From Futiania mangrovi (GTDB lineage Bacteria > Pseudomonadota > Alphaproteobacteria > Futianiales > Futianiaceae): DNA of 64,000 nucleotides. Shown here piece by piece: positions 9,297 through 11,689 of the stretch (position 1 is its first letter; every line of letters starts with the position of its first letter). The position numbers and the translations under genes were made by a program. Below the pieces are notes generated by a model. The model was not told where the DNA came from. It saw nothing but the letters and a program-made list of their open reading frames with translations, and did no database searches. The stretch spans positions 1,302,001 through 1,366,000 of the forward strand of contig NZ_JAMZFT010000001.1 in the NCBI RefSeq assembly GCF_024158125.1. The letters run 5' to 3'.

Positions 9297-9423
9297 TTCC
9301 TCACTGGCAGGCGGGTTCGTTTCGGCGCGGGAGTTTAGGCGGGAAGCCCCCCTCGCGACAACAGGCGAGCGTGCGCGCCCGCGCCGGAAGAGGAATGCAC
9401 AAAGGGACGGTGCGTGCCGCGTG

Positions 9424-9474
9424 ATTCGCGCTTAGGGAGATTTTCTTATACTGGTATTCGACCTAAACGCGAAT
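9424..9474. promoter_or_regulatory. 13-bp inverted repeat, candidate operator or upstream activating site
   Basis: ATTCGCGCTTAGG at 9424-9436 is matched by CCTAAACGCGAAT at 9462-9474, 12 of 13 positions complementary, with a 25-base spacer. It lies between ilvD and the sigma-54 promoter, outside the predicted PEP-CTERM transcript. Either gene could be its target. Confidence 0.5.
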
Positions 9475-9512
9475 GTATTTACAACCCACGGCTCGCCTCG
9501 TGTAAAAACATT
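9472..9512. promoter_or_regulatory. 12-bp inverted repeat with TGTAAA core, candidate enhancer site
   Basis: AATGTATTTACA at 9472-9483 faces TGTAAAAACATT at 9501-9512 with 11 of 12 complementary positions and a 17-base spacer. Its centre is about 120 bases upstream of the sigma-54 promoter, a usual distance for a bacterial enhancer-binding protein. A TTTACA sequence also flanks the dyad at 10450-10489 upstream of the second sigma-54 promoter. Confidence 0.5.
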
Positions 9513-9601
9513 GAGACAGGATTCCCCCAAAACATTCCTGTTTTTGCCAGCAACAGAGCGATCCATTCATTTAGATTACTGACTCTCTTGGGACTTTTTT
9601 T

Positions 9602-9618
9602 TGGCACGCTTCCTGCTT
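9602..9618 (+). promoter_or_regulatory. Sigma-54 (RpoN) -24/-12 promoter of the PEP-CTERM gene
   Basis: TGGCACG-N4-CTGCT with GG at 9603-9604 and GC at 9615-9616, the invariant GG-N10-GC spacing. Transcription would begin near 9628, giving a leader of about 50 bases to the ATG at 9681. PEP-CTERM genes in other bacteria are known to be driven by RpoN with the PrsK/PrsR two-component system. Confidence 0.85.
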
Positions 9619-9680
9619 CGATGTCGGACACCAACCTAGCCGTACGTATGAGTTCGGCGCATGGGAGAAGGAAGCAGATT

Positions 9681-10334
9681 ATGAAGAAGCTGATTACCTC
9701 GACCGCCTTTGCCGCCGCTATGGTGGTTGGCGTCGCAGGCACGGCGTCTGCGGGCATTATTGTCCACGACACCGAGGCCGAGTTCACGATCACGAACAAC
9801 CAGGCTGGGGGCGTTGCCGCCAACCGCTCGATCCTCGGCAACATGTTCGACAACGACACGACGACCATGTTCTCGCTGGGCCTCGGAGGGAACATCGCGC
9901 TTGAGATCGTCCCCTCCACCAACGCCATCACGGACGGCACGGTGGTCGAATTGACGAACCTCGGCTCGAACCACGCTGAATCGGCAATTCTGTCGCTGTT
10001 CGACGTGGGCACCGCGACGTGGATCGACATCGCCGAACTGTTCAACAACGCGGCCCCCGGCGGAACCCAGGCGGTCGACGCCGGCTCCGGCGTTGCGACG
10101 GTGGTCGGTGTCGTTGCCGGCGCCACGTCTAACTTCACGCTGACGGTGCTGAGCGGCACCTTCAATGCGATGCGGCTGACCGACACGTCGTCCAACATCG
10201 TGGGTACCGGGTCCACGGACGGTTTCGACATCGCCGAGCTTTCGGTGACCTCTGTGCCCGAGCCGGGCATGCTCGGCCTGATGGGCGTCGGCCTGCTGGG
10301 CCTGGGCTTTGCGGCGGCGCGCCGCCGGGCCTGA
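9681..10334 (+). CDS. PEP-CTERM sorting domain protein
   Basis: Secreted protein of 217 residues. A Sec signal peptide (MKKLITSTAFAAAMVVGVAG, cleavage after TASA at about 24) is followed by a beta-rich region without a named domain. At the C-terminus stands the tripartite PEP-CTERM signal: VPEPG at about 191, a hydrophobic helix (LGLMGVGLLGLGFAAA) and the terminal RRRA. Such proteins are anchored and cleaved by exosortase and usually belong to exopolysaccharide or floc matrices; no exosortase gene lies in this window. The ATG at 9681 is chosen over upstream starts because it gives the signal peptide and has GGAGAAGGAAG before it. Preceded by a sigma-54 promoter and followed by a strong terminator, so it is monocistronic. 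Confidence 0.92.
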   Translation: MKKLITSTAFAAAMVVGVAGTASAGIIVHDTEAEFTITNNQAGGVAANRSILGNMFDNDTTTMFSLGLGGNIALEIVPSTNAITDGTVVELTNLGSNHAESAILSLFDVGTATWIDIAELFNNAAPGGTQAVDAGSGVATVVGVVAGATSNFTLTVLSGTFNAMRLTDTSSNIVGTGSTDGFDIAELSVTSVPEPGMLGLMGVGLLGLGFAAARRRA

Positions 10335-10379
10335 TCCGCTCGTTACCGGCTTCGACAGCCGGAAAGCATGGCAGAATGG

Positions 10380-10412
10380 AACGCCTCTCCGCCCCCCGCG
10401 GAGGGGCGTTTC
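10380..10412 (+). terminator. Rho-independent terminator of the PEP-CTERM gene
   Basis: A 13-bp stem (AACGCCTCTCCGC with GCGGAGGGGCGTT, one U-G pair) closing a short C loop and followed by TTTC. It starts 45 bases after the stop codon. The terminator at 10740 has nearly the same outer stem. Confidence 0.85.
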
Positions 10413-10449
10413 TGCTGAACAAGCACACGTCCCGCAAAAAAACGTAAAG

Positions 10450-10489
10450 AAAGGTTAACACCAGAAAACGACGATTTCTGTTAACCTTT
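10450..10489. promoter_or_regulatory. Perfect 11-bp inverted repeat upstream of the second sigma-54 promoter
   Basis: AAAGGTTAACA (10450-10460) and TGTTAACCTTT (10479-10489) are exactly complementary with an 18-base spacer; flanking GTAAAG and TTTACA extend the symmetry imperfectly. The centre is about 90 bases upstream of the -12 element, fitting an enhancer-binding protein site. Confidence 0.6.
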
Positions 10490-10543
10490 ACAAACCCCTC
10501 AATTCAAACACCGCAAATAACTGAATTTACGTCATTTCTGTCT

Positions 10544-10560
10544 TGGCACGCATCCTGCTA
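10544..10560 (+). promoter_or_regulatory. Second sigma-54 -24/-12 promoter
   Basis: TGGCACG-N4-CTGCT, with GG at 10545-10546 and GC at 10557-10558 and exact N10 spacing. It differs from the PEP-CTERM promoter at a single base inside this block. Predicted start near 10570. No protein gene follows before the terminator at 10740. Confidence 0.8.
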
Positions 10561-10569
10561 TTAACTAAT

Positions 10570-10770
10570 TAACCACGACGCACCTCTCGAGCCGGGTCCT
10601 CCAGCCGGGCAGGGAGGGGGCGGGTCCGGCACGAGTATAGCCGGGCATCCGGCCAGCGGCGCGGTTCGCGGGCGCAGGTCCCGATCCCGTGCGGATCTGC
10701 GGCGCTTCAGTTTGCGTTTACATGTCTTCCAACCAGTGGAACGCCTCCCGGCCCGGGCCGGGGGGCGTTT
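10570..10770 (+). ncRNA. Candidate sigma-54-dependent short RNA (or relic of a PEP-CTERM gene)
   Basis: A transcript from the sigma-54 promoter to the terminator would be about 200 bases. Within it no start codon with a ribosome-binding site opens a frame that ends before the terminator, and no signal peptide or PEP motif is seen in any frame. The two possibilities are a regulated small RNA or the remains of a deleted PEP-CTERM gene whose promoter and terminator survive. Confidence 0.4.
10740..10770 (+). terminator. Rho-independent terminator, similar to the PEP-CTERM one
   Basis: AACGCCTCCCGGC pairs with GCCGGGGGGCGTT (one U-G pair) around a short loop, followed by TTTC. Its outer stem and the preceding GTGGAACGCC resemble the terminator at 10380 (ATGGAACGCC), suggesting a shared origin. 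It lies just beyond the stop of the convergent LysR gene. Confidence 0.75.
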
Positions 10771-10783
10771 CACGTTTGCGGCA

Positions 10784-11689
10784 TCACCCGCGCTCCCAGG
10801 GCGGGCGGGGTGTGAACTTCTCAACGATGAAATCCACGAAGGCGCGGGTTCGGGCCGAAAGGTGGCGCGCGGAAGGATAGACCGCATAGATCGCCACACC
10901 GGGGTTGACCCGGTAGTCGGGCAGAAGGCGCACGAGGGCACCCGAGCGCAGGTCGCGGTCGACGTCCCAGCTCGACTTCATGGCGATGCCGAGGCCCGAC
11001 AGCGCCGCGTCCCGTACCACGTCGCCATTGTTGGTCGTGAACCGGCCTGCGACCTTCACGATCTCCTGCCCCTGCGGCCCCTCGAAGCGCCAGTGATCCT
11101 GGCCATGCAGGACGATGCAGTCGAAGTCGGCCAGGTCACGCGGGGTTTCCGGAACGCCGTGCTTCTCGACATACTCGGGCGCGGCGACGATCTCGCGCTT
11201 GTTGTCGGCGAGCTTGCGGGCGACGAGGGTCGAATCCTTCAACTCCGCGATCCTGAGGGCAACGTCTATCCCCTCCCCCACGATGTCGGAGAGCGAATCC
11301 GTCAACATCGCGTCGAGCTGCACGCGGGGATGGCGTTTAAGGAACTCCGGCAGGAGCGGCGAGATGTGCAGCCGCCCGAAGCCCGCCGGCATCGTCACCT
11401 TCAGAAGCCCGTGCGGATCGGCCGAGGATTGCGTGGCGGCCGCTTCGGCCTCCTGCACGTCGGTGACGATCCTGACCGCACGCTCGTAGAAGGCATGCCC
11501 CTCGTCCGTCGGGCTCACCCTCCGCGTCGTACGGTTGAGGAGGCGCACGCCCAGCGTCTCCTCCAGCCGCGCGAGGCGCTTCGACACGCTGGCCGGGCTG
11601 AACCCCAGCTCGCGTCCTGCATCCGACAGACTGCCGCGTTCCACAACTCGCGTAAAAAGAACAAGGTCGGAGATATGCTCAACCGGCAT
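10784..11689 (-). CDS. LysR-family transcriptional regulator
   Basis: 301 residues, standard LysR layout. The N-terminal winged helix-turn-helix (about 3-62) includes FTRVVERGSLSDAGRELGFS and ASVSKRLARLEETLGVRLL. A linker helix and the periplasmic-binding-protein-like effector domain (about 92-295) follow. The sequence is close to the CrgA/DsdC-like subgroup often annotated as LysR substrate-binding regulators of aromatic or stress genes. The divergent neighbour is only the small protein at 11821, so the target is unclear; LysR regulators often control the adjacent divergent gene. Confidence 0.93.
   Translation of the reverse strand: MPVEHISDLVLFTRVVERGSLSDAGRELGFSPASVSKRLARLEETLGVRLLNRTTRRVSPTDEGHAFYERAVRIVTDVQEAEAAATQSSADPHGLLKVTMPAGFGRLHISPLLPEFLKRHPRVQLDAMLTDSLSDIVGEGIDVALRIAELKDSTLVARKLADNKREIVAAPEYVEKHGVPETPRDLADFDCIVLHGQDHWRFEGPQGQEIVKVAGRFTTNNGDVVRDAALSGLGIAMKSSWDVDRDLRSGALVRLLPDYRVNPGVAIYAVYPSARHLSARTRAFVDFIVEKFTPRPPWERG

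Follow-up and report, generated by a model that had tools for sequence, protein, structure and literature searches.

A sigma-54 promoter unit with no protein gene beside a PEP-CTERM gene of Futiania mangrovi: a candidate PrsR-controlled non-coding unit of possible duplication origin

What does a bacterium transcribe from a consensus sigma-54 promoter that is followed by a terminator-like hairpin and by no protein gene? This question is raised by the genome of Futiania mangrovi FT118, the first representative of the alphaproteobacterial order UBA8317/Futianiales to be cultured (PMC9927469). The stretch of DNA analyzed here (64,000 nucleotides; referred to as the window) contains two consecutive sigma-54 units. 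The first (unit 1) consists of an activator region, a promoter, a gene for a protein with a PEP-CTERM sorting domain, and a terminator. The second (unit 2, positions 10444-10773) has the same outer parts and no gene between them (Table 1). A first-pass annotation of the window had proposed two alternatives for unit 2, either a small RNA that depends on sigma-54 and shares its regulation with a surface protein, or the shell left by a deleted paralogue.

Table 1. Positions of the features of units 1 and 2 and of the adjoining convergent gene in the window
Feature	Position	Strand	Basis
Putative PrsR site of unit 1, GTCTCAATGTTTTTACA	9502..9518	-	About 83 nt before the unit 1 sigma-54 box
Sigma-54 promoter of the PEP-CTERM gene (unit 1)	9602..9617	+	TGGCACGCTTCCTGCT, exact pattern
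PEP-CTERM sorting-domain protein gene, 217 aa (unit 1)	9681..10334	+	TIGR02595, 20.8 bits (cut-off, 16)
Terminator of unit 1	10377..10412	+	Stem pattern, terminator scan, stem comparison
Putative PrsR activator site of unit 2, copy 1, GTAAAGAAAGGTTAACA, dyad left arm	10444..10460	+	GTNA-N8-TNAC
Putative PrsR activator site of unit 2, copy 2, TTCTGTTAACCTTTACA, dyad right arm	10476..10492	+	17 nt, TTTACA end
Sigma-54 promoter of orphan unit 2	10544..10559	+	TGGCACGCATCCTGCT, exact -24/-12 consensus
Predicted non-coding transcript body of unit 2	10570..10735	+	About 166 nt before the terminator
Terminator-like hairpin of unit 2	10736..10773	+	17-bp stem, homologous to the unit 1 terminator
Convergent LysR-type regulator gene, 301 aa	10784..11689	-	ORF with a LysR-like N-terminus

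The sigma-54 box claimed at 10544 was confirmed in its coordinates and in its exact N10 spacing, with the GG at 10545-10546 and the GC at 10557-10558. Unit 2 has the -24(GG)/-12(GC) motif by which promoters of the PEP-box/PrsR-sigma-54 type are recognized, and the region upstream of the box is low in GC. The near-identity to the promoter of the PEP-CTERM gene also held, as the boxes TGGCACGCATCCTGCT and TGGCACGCTTCCTGCT agree at 15 of 16 positions. Exact matches to TGGCACGN4YTGCW are rare, numbering five in the 3.39-Mb FT118 genome. Besides the copies in units 1 and 2, one lies within coding DNA, one is ahead of another PEP-CTERM gene, and one is intergenic. When two mismatches were allowed, the 15 matches in the window did not exceed chance (24.5 expected).

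The proteins that would control such a promoter are encoded in the FT118 genome. The genes prsK, prsR, and prsT are adjacent (TIGR02916, TIGR02915, and TIGR02917) and score 595, 662, and 535 bits, respectively, all over the curated cut-offs; an exosortase (194 bits) was also found. The genome has four strong sigma-54 activators, of which PrsR is the one that Haft et al. linked to PEP-CTERM genes in 2006 (PMC1569441), and RpoN dependence has been demonstrated for pepA of Aquincola (PMC9850573). A similar sigma-54 box lies upstream of most of the FT118 PEP-CTERM genes examined. In a class-wide scan, 43 composite PEP-box/sigma-54 sites were detected in 22 of 385 genomes, with zero control matches, and the activator consensus of the other genomes, taken from 15 promoters, was GTCGG-N5-YTTACA. 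The exact form of this consensus is absent from FT118, where the PEP-CTERM promoters L046, L047, L053, and L055 have GTNA-N8-TNAC instead. This site form suggests an altered PrsR specificity in this order. A low score of unit 2 with the GTCGG matrix was rejected as evidence against unit 2 alone, because the matrix fails on FT118 promoters generally.

The dyad that had been noticed upstream of the 10544 box was also verified. Its arms, AAAGGTTAACA (10450-10460) and TGTTAACCTTT (10479-10489), are complementary at 11 of 11 positions and lie within the two putative PrsR sites. Copy 2, TTCTGTTAACCTTTACA, ends 51 nt ahead of the sigma-54 box and fits the published PEP-box layout of 17 nt ending in TTTACA, sometimes repeated, with a spacer of 32 to 92 nt (PMC1569441). 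It scored 0.3 bits, and 140 of 500 shuffles were as good, with a matrix that was trained on other genomes and is poor on most FT118 promoters too. The GTNA-N8-TNAC pattern of copy 1, GTAAAGAAAGGTTAACA, has its single occurrence in the window at 10444, and it precedes 4 of 9 FT118 PEP-CTERM sigma-54 promoters (0.14 in shuffles). With a gap of 7 or 8 nt the count rises to 6 of 9 (0.3 in shuffles). Genome-wide, this looser pattern was found beside 7 of the 80 sigma-54-like sites inspected in FT118, belonging to four PEP-CTERM genes, to unit 2, to a locus at C3:39340, and to one position in coding DNA. Shuffles of the unit 2 region contained the GTNA pattern in 2.8% of cases. As GTNA-N8-TNAC was defined partly after unit 2 had been viewed, and is to that extent post hoc, the support that it lends to unit 2 as a putative PrsR target is moderate.

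Taken as a promoter, unit 2 resembles published PEP-box promoters (PMC1569441; PMC9850573) in its exact -24/-12 box, in the TTTACA-ended site upstream of it, and in the second site-like copy. The context is similar as well, with prsK-prsR-prsT in the genome and a PEP-CTERM gene adjoining. However, no protein gene follows, and the FT118 site departs from the GTCGG-N5-YTTACA form that is common elsewhere in the class.

The absence of a start codon with a ribosome-binding site, claimed by the first-pass annotation, was borne out. The plus strand of unit 2 contains four start-like codons (GTG at 10689, TTG at 10712, ATG at 10722, and GTG at 10736), and no Shine-Dalgarno sequence was found before any of them. 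The codon-usage test agreed, as it gave no coding signal on the plus strand of 10569-10736, while pieces of the PEP-CTERM gene were clearly coding in the same test. Unit 2 accordingly shows the arrangement expected of a bacterial trans-acting small RNA, a promoter and a terminator with no ORF between them. The gene that bounds it, putatively of the LysR type by its N-terminus, is convergent; therefore, unit 2 cannot serve as a leader to any gene that follows.

The ends of the two units proved to be closely related. A terminator had been claimed about 170 bases into unit 2, and a 17-bp stem was indeed found there; however, its U-tail is weak (TTTC), and for this reason a simple terminator scan flagged the hairpin of unit 1 and missed that of unit 2. 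The outer stem does resemble that of the PEP-CTERM gene, as claimed. The first ten pairs of both stems are identical, down to two odd wobbles (G.T as pair 2, T.G as pair 9); beyond these ten pairs the stems differ by compensatory changes. In local alignment, the two terminators scored 45, compared to 19.9 (standard deviation, 3.3) in shuffles, a score reached by 0 of 300 (z of about 7.6). The stem pattern GGAACGCCN{6,24}GGCGTTTC, also written GGAACGCC..GGCGTTTC, has exactly two genomic occurrences, one following the PEP-CTERM gene and the other in unit 2, and the shorter AACGCC..GGCGTTT was found only at the same two places in the window (0.05 expected). Other FT118 PEP-CTERM genes have terminators unlike these. 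As the ten pairs are shared with both wobbles and the other terminators are different, common descent of the two terminators is the simplest reading.

Likewise, the activator region of unit 1 can be aligned colinearly with that of unit 2 (an alignment matched by 7 of 300 shuffles), and the unit 1 site GTCTCAATGTTTTTACA matches GTCAC-N6-TTTACA at 10 of 11 positions (3 of 400 shuffles as good). Unit 2 therefore has flanks homologous to a PEP-CTERM unit, as expected of a relic, in both its terminator and its activator region. A coding remnant was sought in the body by nucleotide and three-frame comparison with the unit 1 gene, and the result was no better than shuffles; the likeness of the C-terminal coding sequence GTGCCCGAGCCGGGCA to 10596-10611 was rejected as a gene remnant on the same grounds. 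Closely spaced pairs of PEP-CTERM genes elsewhere in FT118 (C1:324829/325713 and C1:891141/892495) are consistent with local duplication. In Rhodospirillaceae bacterium SYSU D60014, the unit 1 protein has a relative with 51% identity, which likewise stands behind a sigma-54 box. Among 40 class genomes, the order itself (represented by FT118), and plasmids, no DNA relative of unit 2 was found apart from a 33-nt GC-rich chance match.

Both of the original alternatives thus stood in part. The homologous terminators and colinear activator regions fit a shell made by duplication, and the consensus promoter, the activator-like element, and the presence of prsK-prsR-prsT fit a live co-regulated non-coding unit. 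No coding remnant was detectable, and the body, taken apart from its terminator, resembles shuffled sequence in its folding. With slightly better than even confidence, we regard unit 2 as a working PrsR/sigma-54-controlled non-coding unit that derives from a duplicated PEP-CTERM unit. The neighboring PEP-CTERM unit would have been duplicated in tandem and the coding part lost or replaced, leaving activator sites, promoter, and terminator. Phosphorylated PrsR, the partner of the kinase PrsK, would bind the sites around 10444-10492 and contact sigma-54 RNA polymerase at 10544. The resulting RNA, with a predicted length of about 205 nt, would start near 10570 and end at the hairpin, and unit 2 would be induced at the same time as the PEP-CTERM surface proteins. 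A regulatory function of this RNA is no more than a possibility.

Alternatively, unit 2 may be dead; in this case, the coding region of a duplicated PEP-CTERM unit would have been deleted, promoter and terminator would be decaying, and any RNA would be inert. This possibility, which we consider rather unlikely, draws on the terminator homology that is unique in the genome and on the other close-set PEP-CTERM pairs. However, uniform decay would look different, as the promoter, the activator-like element, and the compensated 17-bp stem are intact, in contrast to a body that retains no similarity. Paired changes in the stem and a promoter that is still intact speak against plain decay; the hairpin could, however, have been retained instead as the end signal of the LysR-type gene.

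At the other extreme, unit 2 may be a regulatory small RNA proper, under selection for base-pairing with transcripts that belong to the PrsR regulon or to competing envelope genes. The model for such a role would be the Qrr small RNAs of vibrios, which depend on LuxO and sigma-54 (PMC10162802). Like unit 2, they are short non-coding units behind a sigma-54 promoter with an NtrC-type response regulator (predicted in the case of unit 2); the regulator family is different, and unit 2 is without a known target, chaperone dependence, or conservation. Retention of promoter and terminator while all between them differs would agree with selection for an RNA, and the first predicted hairpin displays a CCUCC loop, a possible anti-Shine-Dalgarno sequence that might pair with ribosome-binding sites in trans. 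However, when the terminator is left out, the fold of the body is no better than that of shuffles (z of -0.6). The low energy of unit 2 folded as a whole (z of -3.2), first read as evidence for an RNA, is due to the terminator and vanishes without it. In addition, pairing of the unit 2 RNA with PEP-CTERM leaders was in general no better than in shuffles; by full-length duplex energy, a crude measure, only the leader L047 stood out (3 of 150). A search of Rfam with positions 9300-11000 returned no match. Xoo2 (RF02241) and sX13 (RF02232) are comparable in being short proteobacterial small RNAs with a terminator hairpin, and sX13 matched unit 2 only at an E value of 3.9, far under the gathering score. 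The literature searched yielded no description of a small RNA under PrsR control; a Desulfovibrio survey linked another response regulator to a small RNA and listed PEP-CTERM genes for the PrsR-like one (PMC3333781). On this evidence, we hold a selected base-pairing role to be possible and doubtful.

Orphan units do occur elsewhere. Downstream of the composite sites in other genomes are mostly PEP-CTERM genes and also units with no gene, among them those of family f104. In this family, a full PEP-box (spacer of 62 to 63 nt) together with a sigma-54 box heads the orphan units of four genomes (G299, G377, G209, and G393), whereas that of G390 has a near-match PEP-box and that of G386 has a sigma-54 box only. 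From promoter to conserved core the units measure 68 to 164 nt and have no ORF in common. Within the core, a hairpin whose loop, UUGACGCCAACCCCGGA (also given as GACGCCAACCCC), is invariant precedes a terminator. This RNA is conserved in three genera, and in seven sequences five pairs have changed on both sides, compared to 1.3 in shuffles (0 of 500 as many). It has no Rfam match above threshold (best, Xoo2 with 31.7 bits; cut-off, 45). The six orphan loci (L176-L181) and L182 represent a candidate new small-RNA family in f104.

The f104 units and unit 2 are alike in having a PEP-box/sigma-54 promoter (with a putative PEP-box in unit 2), no ORF, and a terminator. Moreover, the f104 element of G209 is also found directly behind the stop codon of the PEP-CTERM reading frame L182, so that an orphan unit and a PEP-CTERM gene have a 3' end in common, as do units 1 and 2 of FT118. 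In contrast to unit 2, the f104 RNA has a conserved hairpin loop, and its model (R1) gave no match at 10560-10775 at E values up to 10, which counts against unit 2 as a regulatory RNA. The model also found no relatives outside f104 among the 385 class genomes. As it misses unit 2 and stays within f104, the likeness is one of parallel and not of homology. Weak matches of the model in FT118 (15.9 to 19.2 bits), at C3:39340 and downstream of the PEP-CTERM genes L050 and L046, were treated as hairpin-plus-terminator look-alikes. By analogy, the f104 RNA, with its three genera, invariant loop, and covarying stem, makes a working unit 2 RNA plausible, and PrsR-driven small RNAs, to which unit 2 may belong, are plausible as a class.

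Several further loci came to light. At C3:39340 (L144:2841-3074; G000:C3:39340-39573), another FT118 sigma-54 box, TGGCACGCCTCCTGCA, is accompanied by a GTNA-N8-TNAC site and lies between an mscL-like gene and a gene for a secreted non-PEP-CTERM protein. Its leader of about 210 nt contains a strong terminator-like hairpin (fold z of -3.5) with the loop AGCGUAU, which is also present in the f104 RNA terminators. At L161, L162, and L163, PEP-box/sigma-54 promoters precede a conserved small membrane-like non-PEP-CTERM protein of 80 to 85 aa, possibly a member of the PrsR regulon that is not a surface protein. The PEP-box promoters at L149 and L164 stand ahead of ORFs of 37 aa and about 23 aa, respectively, and the latter, MFKMILGAGLLWLGWARRRRKVV, resembles a bare PEP-CTERM membrane tail.

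It is improbable that unit 2 is a product of chance, with an unused sigma-54-like box and a hairpin that does no more than terminate the transcript of the convergent LysR-type gene. Of the five exact genomic boxes, one does fall in coding DNA, and the hairpin begins about 11 bases past the stop codon of the LysR-type gene. However, the box co-occurs with an activator-like element, a low-GC upstream region, and a neighboring promoter that is nearly identical, and the homologous terminator follows in the same order as in unit 1. A small-protein gene with an unusual start is very improbable, as very short ORFs do follow PEP-box promoters at L149 and apparently at L164, but the plus strand of 10569-10736 has neither a start codon backed by a ribosome-binding site nor a codon-usage signal.

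More broadly, PrsR and sigma-54 may drive small RNAs too, and such RNAs may have arisen repeatedly from duplicated PEP-CTERM units that lost their coding part, with unit 2 and the f104 RNA as examples, giving exosortase bacteria a post-transcriptional arm; we put this forward as a tentative proposal. The PrsK/PrsR regulon has so far been described via surface-protein genes. A non-coding unit under PrsK/PrsR control would bring a post-transcriptional layer into the exosortase/exopolysaccharide program that governs flocs and biofilms, and it would clearly exemplify how an RNA gene can arise from a protein gene of which only the shell is left. Through the conserved f104 RNA, the idea becomes testable without Futiania.
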